Program-made: the position numbers and the translations under genes
Notes under the pieces: model-generated
What the model was told of the DNA's origin: nothing
Databases searched by the model: none
What the model saw: the letters and a program-made list of their open reading frames with translations, nothing else
Part shown: piece by piece, positions 39,659 through 46,362 of the stretch
Numbering within the stretch: the stretch's first letter is position 1
Layout: the number at the start of each line of letters is the position of its first letter
Assembly (NCBI GenBank): GCA_016191785.1
Contig: JACPVJ010000008.1
Span: 1 to 64,000 of the forward strand
Reading direction: 5' to 3'
Length of the DNA: 64,000 nucleotides
From: Myxococcales bacterium
Lineage (GTDB): Bacteria > Myxococcota_A > Polyangia > Polyangiales > Polyangiaceae

Positions 39659-40846
39659 TCAATCCGCGCGAATGCCCTGCAGGCTGCGCGTCAACCGCTC
39701 TGCGACCCGAGGCATGGCCTCGACGCCCACATTCGCAAACGCCAATCGCAGGTAGGACTCCTGCCCCGGCCCGAACATGCTCCCCGGCAAGCAGAGCATG
39801 TTCTGTTCGGTCGCGAGCCACTTTGCCACAGCTGTGGCGTCGCGGTCTCGGAATGGGTGCTTCAGGTACGCGAAATAGGCGCCCGCACTGACCAGCTCGT
39901 AGCCGGTCACCGACCCAAGCGCATGCCGCAAGGCCGAGAGACGTTGGCCCAGCTTGTCCGCGCTCTGCGCACGCCACTCCTGAAGCGACTCGAGACCGAA
40001 GAGCGCCGCTTCCTGCCCGATGCGCGGAGCGCAGATGGCGATCGTATCCATCGCTTTCTCGACCTGCCCGATGAACGACGCCCCCGCAACGACCGCGCCG
40101 ACACGATACCCGGTGATCGCGAAGGCCTTCGAGAAGCTGTAGAGGTGGACCAATGTGTCTTGCCACCGTGCGTCAGCGAACAGCCCGTGTGGCGGCGTGT
40201 CACGCGGAGTGAAGTCCCGATACGTCTCGTCTAGGATCAGCGCGACTCCCTTTGACCGGGCGAGGGCCATGAACTCGCGGAGGACCTCCGGAGGGTAGAT
40301 CGCTCCGGTCGGATTGTTCGGGCTGACCAGGACGATGGCTCGAGTGCGGGGACCAATCCGCGAGCTCGCGTCAGCCGGATCTGGGACACCACCGCGATCG
40401 GCACGGAATGGGAGGTGCGTCGACCGGATGCCGAGCATGTCGAGCCACATCTGGTGGTTGAAGTAGTACGGCACCGGCAGAAGGATCTCGTCACCGGCGC
40501 TCGCCAGCGACATCGTGGCAAGGCAAAACGCTTGATTGCATCCCGCCGAGATCAGCACCTGCTCGGCCGACACGTTCCCTGAGTACCGGGACGAGATGTC
40601 GCTTGCGAGCGCGCGTCGGAGCTCTGCGAACCCGGAGATCGCCGAATACCGCGCCGTAGCGGGGTCGCTCAGCCGAGTCGCAAGAAAGTCCGTCATCGCC
40701 CGAGGTAGAGGGTCACTGGGCACGGCTTGGGCAAGGTCCAAGCGGGGCAACTCAGCTGGGAACGTGCGCCCTTCCACCCAGCCCTGAGCCTCCGGGATAG
40801 GAGGGGGAACGACTGCCTGGAGCAGAGGGTTCGGGCGGAGCGCCAT
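39659..40846 (-). CDS. PLP-dependent aminotransferase, class I/II
   Basis: 395 residues. Fold-type I signatures: ISAGCNQAFCLATMSLA (PLP phosphate region), VLVSPNNPTGAIYPPEVL (Asn contact), LILDETYRDF (Asp) and the PLP lysine in HLYSFSKAFAITGYRVG. It resembles aspartate/aromatic-type aminotransferases rather than the DegT sugar type, so the substrate is more likely an amino acid or keto acid. It heads the leftward group 40846-33158 and diverges from the interrupted lipoprotein gene. Confidence 0.9.
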   Translation of the reverse strand: MALRPNPLLQAVVPPPIPEAQGWVEGRTFPAELPRLDLAQAVPSDPLPRAMTDFLATRLSDPATARYSAISGFAELRRALASDISSRYSGNVSAEQVLISAGCNQAFCLATMSLASAGDEILLPVPYYFNHQMWLDMLGIRSTHLPFRADRGGVPDPADASSRIGPRTRAIVLVSPNNPTGAIYPPEVLREFMALARSKGVALILDETYRDFTPRDTPPHGLFADARWQDTLVHLYSFSKAFAITGYRVGAVVAGASFIGQVEKAMDTIAICAPRIGQEAALFGLESLQEWRAQSADKLGQRLSALRHALGSVTGYELVSAGAYFAYLKHPFRDRDATAVAKWLATEQNMLCLPGSMFGPGQESYLRLAFANVGVEAMPRVAERLTRSLQGIRAD

Positions 40847-40925
40847 GTCCCGCGGGTTTAGCCGACGCTGCGGGCGGTGTCACTTGCCGAGGCGCTCGGT
40901 TGCGCCGGACGGCACCCACGATACG

Positions 40926-41765
40926 ATGAGCCGGATGACCTCGGTCGGCGCCTTGGCGGCGTGGGCAGCCTCATGCGCTCTCTTCGCGTGCGCGCTCGAG
41001 CGAGGTGGAATGCTCGACTCGCGGGGGGGCGACGCCGCACAGGGAGGAACCGCTGGGGTCTCGGGCGCGCCGTTCGGCGGCACCGGCGGCGGCGCCGGCT
41101 GGGCTGGATCTGGGGGTACTCTCGGCGATGCGGCCGGCGACCAGGGCTCTGAGAGCGGCGCCGCAGACGCCCCAGCCGACTCGCCTCACAGCGACGGGCC
41201 GGACGGATGGTCCACCTGGAACCCGGCGACTGCAGCCGACTGCGTCCTCTGGCTCGACGCTTCCGACCCCTCCACGCTGAATACCGTGGGGCCCAACGTG
41301 AACTCCTGGGCCAGCAAGTGTGGGCTGGCGCTCGGAAGCGCCTCGGGAACGCAGCGCCCGGTGCTAGCCATCACCAACGGAAGGCCCACGGTCCATTGCG
41401 ATGGACTGAATGACCGGCTCGTGATCGGCGGTTCTGGCGTTGCAGCCACGCAGTACTCGGTTCTCATCGTCATCGACAAACCCGCCGGCGCACCGAGCCA
41501 GCAAGTCCTGTGGAGCAACCGTGGCCTTGTGCCTCCGGTGGGAGGCACCGCGACCTGGTTCGGGACCCTCAATGGATCGCTGCTCGTCTACCAAGACAGC
41601 GCGACGCCGGCCGCTGCGCTGCTCGGCACGTCCAAGCTCGACGGAAAGACGGCCGTCCTCGAACTCGCGGTGTCCACGCTCGGCGACCGCGCCGCATACC
41701 GCGACGGCCTTCTCGAGCAAAGCGACAGCGGGAGTTCGGGGCTGACGACCTTGCTCGGCACCAGT
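40926..41765 (+). pseudogene. 5' part of a lectin-like lipoprotein gene split by the 4.46-kb transposon
   Basis: 280 codons from the ATG at 40926. The signal carries lipobox LFAC (Cys22), followed by a Gly/Ala/Ser linker (GGTGGGAGWAGSGGT) and a concanavalin-like jelly-roll domain (CVLWLDASDPSTLN, then VHCDGLNDRLVIGGSG). The domain stops abruptly at the transposon's left end; beyond it the frame reads 28 unrelated residues to a stop at 41849. Joining base 41765 to 46228 restores the frame, giving a ~324-residue protein. A truncated lipoprotein may still be made. Confidence 0.88.
41761..41765 (+). repeat. target-site duplication CCAGT, left copy
   Basis: Identical to 46223-46227, directly outside the transposon ends. 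A five-base duplication is what Tn7/Mu/Tn5053-type transposases leave. Confidence 0.9.
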
Positions 41766-41777
41766 TGTACCGCCCCG
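41766..41777 (+). repeat. left terminal inverted repeat of the transposon
   Basis: TGTACCGCCCCG, 12 of 12 identical to the inverse of 46211-46222. It begins TGT, as in Tn7/Mu-type ends. Confidence 0.9.
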
Positions 41778-41792
41778 CGCTCTGCGCGTCGC

Positions 41793-41815
41793 TTCGTCCC
41801 GGATTCGCCGCGTAG
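41793..41815 (+). repeat. inner end motif of the transposon, left copy
   Basis: TTCGTCCCGG, six variable bases, CGCGTAG. The same motif with the same spacing occurs inverted at 46163-46185. Probable second transposase-binding site, 27 bases in from the left tip. Confidence 0.75.
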
Positions 41816-41976
41816 CGTGATTGGGGTCGTGGCGAGCCGCGCTGCGTGAGGCGGTCGCGACCGGGCGAGGGCCTTGGGCAGCGCGGTGCTCGACGCGGAG
41901 GTGGGCAGGCGGACAGACGCGCGCGCCCACCTCCGCGTCCGAGCCCGGTGGGCAGCGTTCCGTTCCGCTTCCTACC

Positions 41977-42996
41977 TCAGGGGGTGGGAAGGGAATGGTC
42001 GTGGAGGCGCCAGCCACGGGGCGTGCGTTCGACGCTGCTGCTCGATTCGAGCTGGCGGAGCGCGACGCCGAGGGTGTCGTTGCGCACGCGCAAGGCGGCG
42101 CGTAACGCCTCTCGCGACAGCGGCCCCGTGGCAGCGGCGAGGTCTGCAAGGATGCGACGGTGAAGATCTGGAGCCAATGTGACGGCCGGGGCGACGCCGT
42201 CGTCGGTCTCGGCACCGCGAGCGGTGAGATGGGCGGGGCCAGATGGATCTTCTGTGGTGACGAGGTCGACGAGGAAAGGTTCTGGTGCGGCGGCAGCGCG
42301 GTGCTCGACGGTGACGACGAGCTCACCGCGGCGACGGCGCACGTAGAGCGCGGAGTCGGTCCATGCGTGGAAGTCGCCTGAGCCGCGCAGACCCTGGCCG
42401 GCGGAGCTGGCAGCGTTCTTGCGAGAGTGGTGGACGACGAGCACGGAGGTGTCGTGAGCGCGCTGCACCTCACGCAAGAAAGCGAGGACCGCGCTGACCT
42501 CGGCGGCGCTGTTCTCGTCGATGCGGTGAAGGCGCACGAAGGGGTCGAGCACGAGCAGTCGCGGCCTGATGGCGGCGAGGGTCTTGTGCAAGCGTCGTTG
42601 ATCGTGGGGGAGATCGAGCCGCAAGCTGGGAGCGGTGACGACGTGGATCGGCAGACTGCCGAGGTCGATGTGCCGGGGAGCGCAGAGGCCCGCGAGGCGC
42701 TGCTTGACGACGGCGGGCGCATCCTCGGCGAGGTAGAGCAGGACGGGTCCCGGGTCGCGCACGTCGAAGCGGCCGAGGCAGGGAGTATCGGAGGCTACGG
42801 AGAGCGCGAGGTCGAGACCGATCCAGCTCTTGTGGCACTTGGGCGCGCCGCCGAGGATGCCGACGCCGGCGCGAGCCCAGAGCGGCTCGACGAGCCAGCG
42901 CTGGTTGGCGTCGAGGTCGGCGAGATCGCGAGCGAGCACGACCGGCAAGAGGTCGTGCGCGCTCGCGTCGCTCTCGGAGGGCACCCGCTCGGTCAC
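41977..42996 (-). CDS. RepA-like AAA ATPase of the transposon (AAA_25 type)
   Basis: 339 residues. P-loop variant GAPKCHKSW (50-58), as in RepA/RecA-like helicase ATPases (G.PK..KSW), then LLVLDPFVRLH (Walker B) and VLVVHHSRKN. The C-terminus looks like a winged-helix (LSREALRAALRVRNDTLGVALRQLE). Such proteins are hexameric RecA-fold ATPases known from plasmid replication and mobile elements. Its start overlaps the ExeA-like stop by four bases, so it is part of the transposon operon. Its role in transposition is unknown; loading a replication machine or target handling are guesses. Starts from ATG 42996. Confidence 0.85.
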   Translation of the reverse strand: MTERVPSESDASAHDLLPVVLARDLADLDANQRWLVEPLWARAGVGILGGAPKCHKSWIGLDLALSVASDTPCLGRFDVRDPGPVLLYLAEDAPAVVKQRLAGLCAPRHIDLGSLPIHVVTAPSLRLDLPHDQRRLHKTLAAIRPRLLVLDPFVRLHRIDENSAAEVSAVLAFLREVQRAHDTSVLVVHHSRKNAASSAGQGLRGSGDFHAWTDSALYVRRRRGELVVTVEHRAAAAPEPFLVDLVTTEDPSGPAHLTARGAETDDGVAPAVTLAPDLHRRILADLAAATGPLSREALRAALRVRNDTLGVALRQLESSSSVERTPRGWRLHDHSLPTP

Positions 42997-43847
42997 GCCT
43001 TGGCGCTCCGAGCGGGTGCGGGGGGCGGCGCCGCGAGAGCGGGGCCGAGCATGTCATCGACGGCGGCGGCGAGCACGTGCTCGTCGACGAAGTCCTGGGT
43101 CCGCTCGTGTGCAAGGCGCAGCGCCGAGCGCAGGAGCCTGCTCGCAATGCGGAGATAGCCGCGGCTTTGACGGTAGAGCAGCTCCATGGCGGGGTCGCTC
43201 AAGAGCTTCTGGCGCGCACCGACCGCCTCGAGTCCGCCGTGGATGCACGCGGCAAACCCCTCGCGATCGGACCACGGCTCGATGTGCACGTGGGTTTGGA
43301 TGCGCATGGCGAGCGGCGCGTGTTGTTGCTGCGCGAGCGTACGACCGAGTGCGGGGAGCCCGACCAGCCACAGGGTCAAGAGCTCGCGGCTATCGAAGGC
43401 GAAGTTGAGAAACCCCGAGAGGTCGAGCAGAAACTTGTCGCTCAAGTGTTGCGCTTCGTCGAGCACGAGGACGGGCTGGGTGTGTCGCTCGTCGACCAGA
43501 TGGACGAGCACCTTCTTGATGTCGGTCCAGAGCTGGCCGCGACGATGCGACGGCGCGACGCCGAGCTCCTGCGCCAGAGTGCGGTACAAGTCGAGCGGCG
43601 AGACGGCGGTGTCGCACAGGTAGAGCACCAGGTGGTCGGGCTTGGGCAAGGTCGCGCAAAGGTTTCTGAGCGCGGCAGTCTTGCCGACGCCGGGCTCGCC
43701 GGTGAGCAGGCCCGCGCCGGGCTCGTCGACCAGTTGGAGGAAGACTCGCTCGAGCCGCCGGTACGCCGGGCTGTCCTCGTAGAAGGTCTTGCCTTGGGCA
43801 TTCTTGGGCAGCGGATGGCCCGTGAGTCCGAATCGTTTGCGGTACAT
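42993..43847 (-). CDS. ExeA/TniB-like AAA+ ATPase of the transposon
   Basis: 284 residues from the ATG at 43847, chosen for AAGGAG seven bases upstream; the longer frame to 44054 runs into the transposase gene. Typical start MYRKRFGLTGHPLPKNA, Walker A GEPGVGKT (50-57), Walker B LVLDEAQ (127-133) and sensor-type WLVGLPALGRTL. ATPases of the ExeA/TniB/TnsC/IstB group act as target selectors and activators for DDE transposases encoded next to them, as here. Confidence 0.9.
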   Translation of the reverse strand: MYRKRFGLTGHPLPKNAQGKTFYEDSPAYRRLERVFLQLVDEPGAGLLTGEPGVGKTAALRNLCATLPKPDHLVLYLCDTAVSPLDLYRTLAQELGVAPSHRRGQLWTDIKKVLVHLVDERHTQPVLVLDEAQHLSDKFLLDLSGFLNFAFDSRELLTLWLVGLPALGRTLAQQQHAPLAMRIQTHVHIEPWSDREGFAACIHGGLEAVGARQKLLSDPAMELLYRQSRGYLRIASRLLRSALRLAHERTQDFVDEHVLAAAVDDMLGPALAAPPPAPARSAKA

Positions 43848-43848
43848 G

Positions 43849-45264
43849 TCATTTCTCCTTGTTGTCGTGGTCGTTGTCCTCGGGGTCTTCGTCGTCATCG
43901 AGCAGATGCCGGAAAGCGTCGTCGGGCGGCGGGGTGCCGCGTGTCCGCGCGTAGTGGTCGCGGGCGATGAGCGCGAGCGGGTCGAGCCCGCTCGGCTCGG
44001 CGTGCGGCTCGGCCGCGCCGAGATCGCGGCGTCGGCGGCGCGTCGCATTGCCACGGCGGTCGAGCGGGACGGTGTCGCAGAAAAAGCGCTTCGCCACGTA
44101 CACCTTCGGCAGCGCCAGCGGGTCGTGCGGGTCGAAGCGCAATTCGACCCTCTGGCCGCTGAGCTCTGCGCGCACTTCCAGTAGCTGTCCGCGGAAGCTC
44201 AGCGTGCCGTCTTTGCGCACATGGCGGATGGCGCGGTGAAGAAACACGGCGTCGAGATCGATGCCGCGGGGCAGCGGGCGTACGTGCCCGGCTGCCACCT
44301 CCGCGAGCCAGTGCTCGCGAGGCGCGCGTCCCGTCGTGTCGTGCTCGCGCGCGTGGTACTCCTGCTCGAGCCAAGCCCAATGCAGCGCGTTGAGCTCCGG
44401 AAGCGTGAGGATGCGGTCGCCGAGCTCGTCGCCCACCTCTTCCCGCCACGTGCGGTGCCAGCGCTCGATCGCTCCCTTCGCCTCGGCGTCGCCCGAGCCG
44501 GTGTAGAGCAAGCGGATCCCGAGGTCGGCGGTGATGCTGCGGAGCGAGCCGGCGGTGTAAGGCGCTCCTCGGTCGACGTAGTAACAGCGGAAGAGTCCCG
44601 CCTTGAGCAGTGCATTCTTCAGCCCGCGCTCGTGATCTTCCGGTCGCTCGCCCGGGGCGATCACGAAGCGGCTCTCGATGATGTAGCGCGTCGAGCAGTC
44701 GAGCTCCGAGAAGAGGATGGCTTTCTTGGGTCGGCCATCTGGCGTGAGCACCTGCGGTCCGTGCAGGGCGTCGCCGATGCACAAGTCGCCGGCATGCTCG
44801 GTGATGAAGGAGCGCCGCTCTGTGGCGGGCCCGCGCGTGGGGCGAGCGGAAATGCCATGGCCCGCAAGCAATCGGTGCACGCTCGACCGGCTCAACTCAC
44901 CGGCGCACACGGCGCCAGCGCGCTCCAGCATGCGGATCAGCCGGCGTATCGAGCGGCGTGGTTTCTCGCGTTTGGCGCGGAGCAGAAGCTCCGCAACCTC
45001 GGCCCGGATGGCACGGCTCCGCCCGCAGTCGATGCGGGCCTCGGGCTCGAGCGCCCGAAGCCCGCCCTTGCGATACGCGAGGTACCAGCTCTCGATGGTG
45101 CGCGCGGAGAGCCGCACGAGCCGGCCGCCCGGATGCTCGTGCACACGCTCGGCCGCCGCCCGAAACCAGGCGCGGCGATCGCCATGCTCGAGCCGGGCAC
45201 TCACCAGCGGCCCGAGCACGCCGAAGCGCCAGAGCGCCACTCGCTGCCGGTCGTCATCGTCCAT
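43849..45264 (-). CDS. Mu/TnsB/TniA-like DDE transposase
   Basis: 471 residues. N-terminal helix-turn-helix region (RLSARTIESWYLAYRKGG), a second DNA-binding helix pair, then the integrase core with Asp165 (LCIGDALHGP), Asp231 (YYVDRGAPY) and Glu267 (EAKGAIERWH). The 35-residue gap between the last two is the canonical DD(35)E. A Mu-C-type beta-barrel follows (LSFRGQLLEVRAELSGQRVELRFDP), then a basic and acidic tail. It should cut and join the ends at 41766 and 46222. It lies 92 bases after the zinc-ribbon gene and one base before the ATPase. Confidence 0.93.
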   Translation of the reverse strand: MDDDDRQRVALWRFGVLGPLVSARLEHGDRRAWFRAAAERVHEHPGGRLVRLSARTIESWYLAYRKGGLRALEPEARIDCGRSRAIRAEVAELLLRAKREKPRRSIRRLIRMLERAGAVCAGELSRSSVHRLLAGHGISARPTRGPATERRSFITEHAGDLCIGDALHGPQVLTPDGRPKKAILFSELDCSTRYIIESRFVIAPGERPEDHERGLKNALLKAGLFRCYYVDRGAPYTAGSLRSITADLGIRLLYTGSGDAEAKGAIERWHRTWREEVGDELGDRILTLPELNALHWAWLEQEYHAREHDTTGRAPREHWLAEVAAGHVRPLPRGIDLDAVFLHRAIRHVRKDGTLSFRGQLLEVRAELSGQRVELRFDPHDPLALPKVYVAKRFFCDTVPLDRRGNATRRRRRDLGAAEPHAEPSGLDPLALIARDHYARTRGTPPPDDAFRHLLDDDEDPEDNDHDNKEK

Positions 45265-45356
45265 GTCCCACCGCTATCCCAAGGCCATGGACACTTCGGG
45301 TGGGAATCGATCATGCTTCTCCGGAGCGCGTCTCGCCGCGCGGGGCTCACCGGCGG

Positions 45357-46100
45357 CTACATGAGACGCACTCCGGGGGCGAGCCGGTGGACGACACCCG
45401 CCAGCGCGCCAAGCACGTGGCCGCTCGCCAGCGGCGGCGCGCTGCTCTCGGCGAAGAGCGCCACGACCTCACCGCGCGTTGCCGCGTAGCCCGCCCGCTT
45501 CACCACCACGGCGATCTCGCGCACATCCATCGCGGTGCTCAGCACCGCGACCACCAGCGCCGCCGACGTCACCAGCCGCCCGCGCCAGCGGGCGCGAGTC
45601 CTCTCCGGTATCGGCGGCCCAGTGTCGCTGGCCAAACCCGGCGCGACGCACTCTGCGTCGTCCGCTCGATCGGCGACCGCCCGCTCGACGGTGCTCCACG
45701 CCCGCCACAGGTGGCGGGCGAGCAACCCCGGAAGCACACGCCACACCGCGCCGCAGCTCTCCCGGTCGGCGCAACGGTAGATAGCGATATCGGTGGTGCC
45801 TTCGCCTTCGCCGAGCAGCAGCCGGCTACGGTGCTCGTGGGCATGGACCGGGCTGCCGCACCGCTCGCAGCGAGCCGGGCGGTATCCATCGATGCGCAGC
45901 CAACGCTCGTGATCCTGGAGCTCGACGACCCCTTCTGCGACCAGCGTCCCGCCCTTCTGCTTCGGAGTCCTGGACCCATACGCACGAGTCAGGCAAAACT
46001 CGGGGTCCGGAGGAGGCGATCGATGGTCGATCGGCGGGGTCAATGTGTACATACATCCGACGTGCCCAACCTCCTCCGGGCTTTCAACTCGATCCGCCAT
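45357..46100 (-). CDS. zinc-ribbon protein of the transposon (DUF6431-like)
   Basis: 247 residues from an ATG at 46100; a TTG at 46148 and an ATG at 46052 (behind GGAGGAGG) are alternatives. The central part is a zinc ribbon with C78-x2-C81 (RCERCGSPVHAHEHR) and C110-x5-C116 (YRCADRESCGAVWRVLPG), a layout I associate with DUF6431-type proteins found next to such transposases. The C-terminal half is Ala/Val/Arg-rich helices, possibly DNA-binding. It occupies the place where a TniQ/TnsD target selector might be expected, but no TniQ similarity is visible. Confidence 0.7.
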   Translation of the reverse strand: MADRVESPEEVGHVGCMYTLTPPIDHRSPPPDPEFCLTRAYGSRTPKQKGGTLVAEGVVELQDHERWLRIDGYRPARCERCGSPVHAHEHRSRLLLGEGEGTTDIAIYRCADRESCGAVWRVLPGLLARHLWRAWSTVERAVADRADDAECVAPGLASDTGPPIPERTRARWRGRLVTSAALVVAVLSTAMDVREIAVVVKRAGYAATRGEVVALFAESSAPPLASGHVLGALAGVVHRLAPGVRLM

Positions 46101-46162
46101 GGCGCGGATTCTGTCCCGCTCCACGCTCCGCGCGGAGCGCCGCCGCAACGGCGGCGGCGCTC

Positions 46163-46185
46163 CTACGCGTCTATGCCGGGACGAA
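46163..46185 (-). repeat. inner end motif of the transposon, right copy
   Basis: Read on the minus strand: TTCGTCCCGG, six variable bases, CGCGTAG, identical in both conserved blocks to 41793-41815. It sits 37 bases in from the right tip. Confidence 0.75.
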
Positions 46186-46210
46186 CGCTTCCTCGGCTAC
46201 GCATGCAGCA

Positions 46211-46222
46211 CGGGGCGGTACA
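46211..46222 (-). repeat. right terminal inverted repeat of the transposon
   Basis: The minus strand reads TGTACCGCCCCG, 12 of 12 identical to the left end. Confidence 0.9.
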
Positions 46223-46227
46223 CCAGT
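46223..46227 (+). repeat. target-site duplication CCAGT, right copy
   Basis: Directly abuts the right terminal repeat and equals 41761-41765. Confidence 0.9.
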
Positions 46228-46362
46228 GATCTCTGTCACGACGCGGTCAACATGGAGCATGGCTCATTCGACATCTTCGAGGTGGTTGCTTTCGCGCATC
46301 GCTTGACTGCCGTGGAGCGGGCTGACGCGACGAACGCGCTCAAAAAAAAATGGGGGCTCTAG
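46228..46362 (+). pseudogene. 3' part of the split lectin-like lipoprotein gene
   Basis: 44 codons plus a stop. The residues (GSFDIFEVVAFAHRLTAVER, ending KKKWGL) are the standard last strands of concanavalin-like jelly-roll domains (FEVxxYxRxLSxxERxxVxxYLxxKWG). The frame matches that of 41765 when the transposon and one CCAGT are removed, giving LLGTSDLCHDAVN across the scar. No start of its own. Confidence 0.88.

Follow-up and report, generated by a model that had tools for sequence, protein, structure and literature searches.

The stretch of DNA analysed here, referred to as the window, comprises the first 64,000 nucleotides of contig JACPVJ010000008.1 from the draft genome of a Myxococcales bacterium (family Polyangiaceae; assembly GCA_016191785.1), and it carries a compact transposon that encodes a zinc-ribbon protein (gene 1), a DDE transposase (gene 2), an AAA+ ATPase (gene 3) and a predicted RepA-type helicase (gene 4; Table 1). 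An earlier sequence-only reading, made without database searches, had described a complete, cargo-free transposon of 4457 base pairs (bp) with 12-bp inverted repeats, a CCAGT duplication and four genes on one strand, and all of these details proved exact, including the coordinates. The terminal 12-mer occurs without mismatch only twice in the 64-kb window, namely at 41766-41777 on the plus and at 46211-46222 on the minus strand, and the four genes between these ends, all on the minus strand, fill the element. If the element and one CCAGT are deleted by script, the two flanking frames fuse into a single frame of 351 amino acids (aa). An empty site, which had been suggested as a check, was found at the protein level in G219, a genome of the same genus, where the host gene (locus L087) is unbroken and identical at 190 of 306 positions before and 30 of 44 positions after the insertion point; a Pfam scan of the 5' part of the interrupted gene gave no match. 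Since the ends are exact and flanked by CCAGT, the frame rejoins and the gene is whole in G219, we conclude that the insertion is real and its borders are right, so that the anatomy of the transposon is well supported. The own draft genome (216 contigs) contains one transposase match.

Table 1. Coordinates of the transposon, its genes and ends, and the interrupted host gene in the window.
Feature	Position	Strand	Basis or detail
Whole transposon	41766..46222	none	4457 bp; 12/12 inverted ends, 5-bp duplication, empty-site frame, whole gene in G219
Gene 1, DUF6431-related zinc-ribbon protein, 247 aa from ATG 46100	45357..46100	-	PF20020, E 4.4e-4
Gene 2, DDE transposase, 471 aa, N-terminal HTH_32 and Mu-transpos_C	43849..45264	-	profile matches, invariant triad
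Gene 3, AAA+ ATPase (AAA_22), TnsC/MuB-like	42993..43847	-	Pfam, phrog_296, MuB
Gene 4, predicted RSF1010 RepA-type hexameric helicase (AAA_25)	41977..42996	-	RepA sequence motifs, predicted fold
R-end (fourth-gene side)	41766..41802	+	TGTACCGCCCCG, then second box TTCGTCCCGG, GTCCC at +31
Z-end (zinc-ribbon side)	46176..46222	-	TGTACCGCCCCG, then second box TTCGTCCCGG, GTCCC at +41
Target-site duplication copy 1, CCAGT	41761..41765	+	length 5 by script
Target-site duplication copy 2, CCAGT	46223..46227	+	length 5 by script
Host gene 5' part, 307 codons, broken by the element	40845..41765	+	frame joined by script
Host gene 3' part, 44 codons and stop	46228..46362	+	frame joined by script
Palindrome in the gap from gene 4 to the R-end, containing a perfect 15-bp stem	41892..41939	none	not claimed essential

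The four genes and the exchangeable fourth slot

The starts of the homologues of gene 1 favour the ATG at 46052 over that at 46100. With 20.5 bits the protein lies below the gathering score of the DUF6431 model PF20020 (26.6), which is carried by several of its homologues, including P0130 and P0135 (64-68% identical). Four cysteine and three histidine columns are invariant in an alignment of 40 rows and the C-terminus is conserved with the consensus VHRLAPGVRLM, while a search with the predicted fold gave no significant match. In gene 2, the residues D165, D231 and E267, assigned as the catalytic triad by motif, are invariant. An alignment of 32 rows matched, among the solved sequences, TnsB of a type V-K CRISPR-associated transposon (CAST) with E 1.4e-10 and IstA of IS21 with E 4e-4; the protein further matches the PADLOC model of TnsB (E 5e-6), its best PHROG is a transposase family, and its catalytic region is IS481-like at 114 bits, below the NCBIfam cut-off of 224. 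Gene 3 matches AAA_22 (E 7e-24), phrog_296 (E 2e-27) and MuB (E 6e-4), and its putative likeness to TnsC is one by family, without a direct TnsC match.

In none of the four proteins did Pfam models of TnsA, TniQ, TniB or a resolvase catalytic domain match at E<=1. The proposed comparison of the zinc-ribbon protein with TniQ gave no match, in agreement with the sequence-only reading; its further idea that this protein replaces TniQ is not supported by this, as a missing Pfam match says nothing about function. Nor is there support for the idea that the RepA-like ATPase replaces a resolvase, since the work of a resolvase is beyond a helicase of the RepA type. The RepA-like character of gene 4 itself is upheld by sequence motifs and predicted fold, both of which are those expected of a RepA-type hexameric helicase, and the protein additionally carries a predicted C-terminal winged helix-turn-helix (HTH). 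Its GTG start overlaps the stop of gene 3 by 4 bp, its inheritance goes along with that of the core (Mantel r 0.76-0.88, nine elements), and it is under purifying selection, with a nonsynonymous divergence (dN) of 0.065 and a synonymous divergence (dS) of 0.30 between L077 and L078.

In relatives, the slot of gene 4 can be filled by small open reading frames (ORFs) or by a Prim-Pol protein. We counted 19 distinct close-clade loci after removing repeats of the same places (L001-L004, L006, L007, L011, L075, L080, L082, L091-L097, L099, L100 and L102-L107). The search for the four-gene order was successful, as genes 1 to 4 are intact and in order at nine of these loci (the window, L031-L035 and L076-L078), and at two more gene 4 is either split by about 3.3 kb (L083, also found as L109) or decayed (L036). 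By eye, the consecutive ORFs that split gene 4 (L109, 4127-7440) resemble a tyrosine-recombinase trio. One locus, L081, encodes in the slot a protein of 741 aa that has a Prim-Pol domain and matches a primase and, weakly, a helicase, and another, L108, holds two small ORFs of roughly 150 and 110 residues, read from three-frame translations only, with no gene 4 match found in the slot. The other six are counted with an unreadable slot, being remnants (L045, L064, L084, L085) or contig ends (L005, L079). In a transposase tree of 30 rows, the 13 close rows form one clade (support 100/100), with L081 as sister to L035 and L108 as sister to the helicase-bearing L033. Because L081 and L108 nest there, the fourth slot must have changed hands within the clade. 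It is exchangeable and holds a predicted replication protein in two forms.

Ends, duplications and distribution

The related elements have similar ends, as the sequence-only reading required, and each end is bipartite, with a second box at a characteristic distance. At the R-end the start of this box (GTCCC or similar) lies 31 bp in at all nine close-clade ends read, eight of which were found without fixing the spacing and one, L108, by a spacing-fixed pattern; no R-end of this box type was found for L077, L078 and L083. At the Z-end it starts 41 bp in at 11 close-clade ends, seven of them, including the window, found without fixing the spacing and four (L005, L034, L076, L108) by the spacing-fixed pattern, although in L076 the 12-mer scan preferred another place 11 bp inside. 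The box starts at 42 in L077-L079 and is absent in L085. With the boxes at 31 and 41, the two ends differ by about one helical turn, the Z-end box being further in. The ends of Mu and Tn7 are unequal as well, and the conserved asymmetry may be comparable to theirs.

Around the stop of gene 4 we observed an inverted repeat of GTTCCC/ATTCCC and GGAACG units (window 41960-42000; at the same place in L031-L034 and others). It occurs in all seven helicase-type elements examined, and no such pair was seen in the elements of L081, G022, G278 and G299; a terminator or a binding site of the helicase are both candidate roles. In addition, the gap between gene 4 and the end contains long palindromes of unrelated sequence in the window, L031, L032 and L035, with arms of 15-26 bp that are perfect save for one mismatch in L035. 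Compared with shuffled controls, they stand far above expectation in L031, L032 and L035 and modestly above it in the window. As they are present in only four of the seven helicase-type elements, the large palindrome was rejected as a universal part.

Duplications were counted only for copies with both ends found. Among the seven close-clade copies scored by script, three carry one (CCAGT in the window; CCATC and CCTGC in the other two, L032 and L081), with no clear site shared, and four do not (L031, L034, L035, L076). In an eighth copy, L108, the flanks CCTGG and CCTTG match by eye at four of five positions. The missing duplications may reflect intramolecular copy-in, but they would fit assembly artefacts as well. 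In L031, two copies of the same zinc-ribbon-side end (5491 and 5605) face each other about 113 bp apart, which may represent an intramolecular copy-in inversion or an assembly join.

The DDE and AAA+ core belongs to an unnamed, widespread family. A transposase relative (E<=1e-20) is present in at least 60 of the 317 genomes of the host's class, and the three-gene core was seen both on plasmids and in several of that class's genomes, where relatives exist as multiple copies. Hence, of the four-gene set that the sequence-only reading called unusual, the helicase gene deserves this description, whereas the core of three genes cannot be called rare. When genomes were scanned with the transposase alignment at E<=1e-90, relatives were found in at least five of the 377 genomes of the phylum sample (own genome included), in at least one of the 297 from the phylum to which G319 belongs (G319 itself), in at least two of 201 in that of G317 (G317 itself and one 39% identical) and in one of eight in that of G321 (G321 itself). 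These are lower bounds, as the best candidates scored per genome were at most five (class of the host; phylum of G319), four (phylum sample) or eight (phylum of G317). A search of contigs returned no locus with the single transposase and 11 loci with the alignment. The metagenome-assembled genomes (MAGs) with close loci are labelled Myxococcales, Myxococcota, Deltaproteobacteria, Armatimonadetes, Acidobacteria, Gammaproteobacteria, Schekmanbacteria and Planctomycetia; G244, of the host's family, carries a contig labelled as a Myxococcales MAG. The closest pair is formed by L077 and L078, whose labels name different phyla and whose transposases share about 95% of their residues. Together with L079 these elements, which resemble one another closely, lie in MAGs that bear the labels Gammaproteobacteria and Acidobacteria, and recent transfer between phyla or mis-binned contigs are the candidate explanations.

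The wide-family ends begin with TGTTA in four genomes belonging to the class of the host, and 14 of the 15 copies with both ends have duplications of 4-7 bp; at L037-L057 their length (4, 5, 6 or 7 bp) varies even among the copies of one genome. Downstream of the ATPase, wide-family loci often have small ORFs with a length of about 70-140 aa, whereas at some of these loci no ORF was found there. One copy in G299 (L052, 3329-8517) measures 5,189 bp compared to 3,708 bp in its sisters and has kept a 5-bp duplication; its extra length probably represents an insertion near the left end.

Relation to known systems

The closest counterparts are unnamed DUF6431-DDE-AAA+ transposons such as those on Paraburkholderia PPGU19_p3 and Acidithiobacillus caldus mpAca1.1, with which the window element shares the three genes in the same order on one strand. 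They differ in their transposases, which are about 29-45% identical, and in their fourth slot, where either small ORFs (about 70-140 aa) or no ORF was found. DUF6431 scored above the cut-off for the first gene in one of four wide-family elements scanned and weakly in the other three. Of five plasmid loci opened, three (Paraburkholderia, Acidithiobacillus, Streptomyces) have DUF6431 followed by DDE in their annotation, and at the Pandoraea and Mycobacterium loci the first gene is annotated merely as 'hypothetical'.

With Tn7-like elements, including V-K CASTs, the element has in common a TnsB-like DDE transposase, a TnsC-like ATPase, TGT ends and a 5-bp duplication. In PMC11406308, however, the working definition of Tn7-like elements is TnsB and TnsC plus TnsA and/or TniQ, and since neither of the latter was matched, the element is not Tn7-like in this sense. 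Tn5053/Tn402 resemble it in their DDE and AAA+ core and in the predicted replicative mode, but no counterpart of their TniB, TniQ or resolvase was matched. As regards Mu-like phages, the best PHROGs of genes 2 and 3 are a phage transposase and a 'DNA transposition protein', models that we take to come from such phages, and the copy-in logic would be similar. In contrast to these phages, the element measures 4.5 kb and has four genes but no phage genes, and Mu borrows the restart proteins of its host. A phage origin was rejected, given a single weak match in 50,697 phage records; no relative turned up in the viral contigs, whether these were scanned using the transposase alignment or using the fourth protein of L081. 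Gene 4, finally, resembles the RepA helicase of RSF1010 in sequence motifs and predicted fold, but it has the extra predicted winged HTH and is encoded by a transposon instead of a plasmid. No named family for the four-gene set emerged from the Pfam, NCBIfam, PHROGs and PADLOC scans, and searches of the open-licence PubMed Central (PMC) literature found no description of an element with a helicase slot; the one paper there in which DUF6431 occurs seemed unrelated.

Proposed mechanism and rival readings

From our point of view, the element is a complete transposon that likely moves by TnsB/TnsC-type copy-in, with the predicted gene 4 helicase helping to start replication on the strand-transfer intermediate, a reading to which we assign a probability of roughly 45%. 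The sequence itself shows the ends, the duplication, the order of the genes, the conserved residues of the motifs and the fourth slot, including the presence of another replication-type protein there in a relative. Judged from families and folds, the gene 2 protein would join the 3' ends to a target that is chosen or activated by the gene 3 protein, and the gene 1 protein might bind DNA or bridge its partners. Since no TnsA was matched, the second strands would likely stay uncut, which would yield a Shapiro intermediate. Such an intermediate needs replication restart, a step that the element's own helicase would supply. In Mu, restart is carried out by the PriA primosome of the host. For TnsA-less relatives, PMC11406308 describes replication of the Shapiro intermediate by a host system into a cointegrate, and papers on Mu restart by the PriA primosome are cited there. 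With no resolvase on board, cointegrates would here be resolved by host recombination; PMC8649781 states that elements without a resolvase may use resolvases in trans or RecA. That the element brings its own replication-start step would be the simplest reading of a helicase in the operon of the ATPase and of a relative with a Prim-Pol protein in its place. One could go further and speculate, as a tentative extension that we consider possible at best, that the RepA-type helicase or the primase-helicase of the sister element takes over the Shapiro intermediate, that copy-in is thereby independent of PriA, and that the swappable slot helps the element to work across phyla.

Several observations weigh against this proposal. 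The core can do without the helicase, since L108 lacks it within the fully supported clade, and its absence has not kept wide-family relatives from moving. The Prim-Pol version is represented by one MAG locus, with a weak helicase match (E 5e-5). In the Foldseek search with gene 4 a RAD51 paralogue came out slightly ahead of RepA, the structure model has low-confidence stretches, one of them at the Walker A region, and in the close homologues that were aligned another residue takes the place of the glycine preceding the Walker A lysine (the motif reads GKS in L076 and L083). REP-like AAA_25 proteins are, moreover, very numerous (6,188 at E<=0.001), a zinc-ribbon model of serine recombinases matches gene 1 faintly (E 0.16, below the cut-off), and the missing duplications may be artefacts because three of the four copies concerned lie on contigs of 4.8-5.8 kb.

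It is rather unlikely, though deserving of consideration, that gene 4 and the Prim-Pol protein serve to select the target, the slot acting like TnsD, TnsE or TniQ and steering the element to replicating DNA via the ATPase. The exchangeability of the slot, its position next to the AAA+ gene, the predicted winged HTH and the lack of a TniQ match would all agree with such a role; however, a replicative-helicase catalytic domain kept by purifying selection exceeds the needs of a tether, the three scored close-clade duplications have no clear site in common, and the insertion in the window sits in an ordinary gene. The movement of wide-family elements and the existence of L108 without gene 4 would also be expected if this gene had no part in the chemistry of movement and were either a regulator, its HTH autoregulating the operon, or a passenger that benefits the host or stabilises plasmids, and the inverted repeats beside its 3' end could be binding sites or terminators. 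We nevertheless consider this unlikely, given the overlap of the gene 4 start with the ATPase stop, its co-inheritance with the core, the different replication-type protein in the slot of L081 and the fact that no PADLOC defence model matches gene 4 at E<=0.01. Lastly, an IS21-like cut-and-paste element with accessory extra genes appears quite improbable. IS21 duplications are 4-8 bp long, a range into which those of the wide family fall, and with the single gene 2 sequence IstA of IS5376 was the first match among solved sequences (E 6e-6), yet the alignment reversed this order in favour of V-K CAST TnsB, the NCBIfam IS21 model reached 34.4 bits against a cut-off of 160, and the Pfam model of IstB had no match.

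Replicative transposons are thought to depend on the restart machinery of their host for completion. If the copy-in proposal holds, a helicase-bearing element and its Prim-Pol relative would open the hand-off between recombinase and replisome to direct tests, for which four genes and two short ends suffice, and a compact copy-in element with a reduced need for host factors would be a useful tool. The DUF6431-like proteins, in turn, would gain a concrete setting as transposition proteins.

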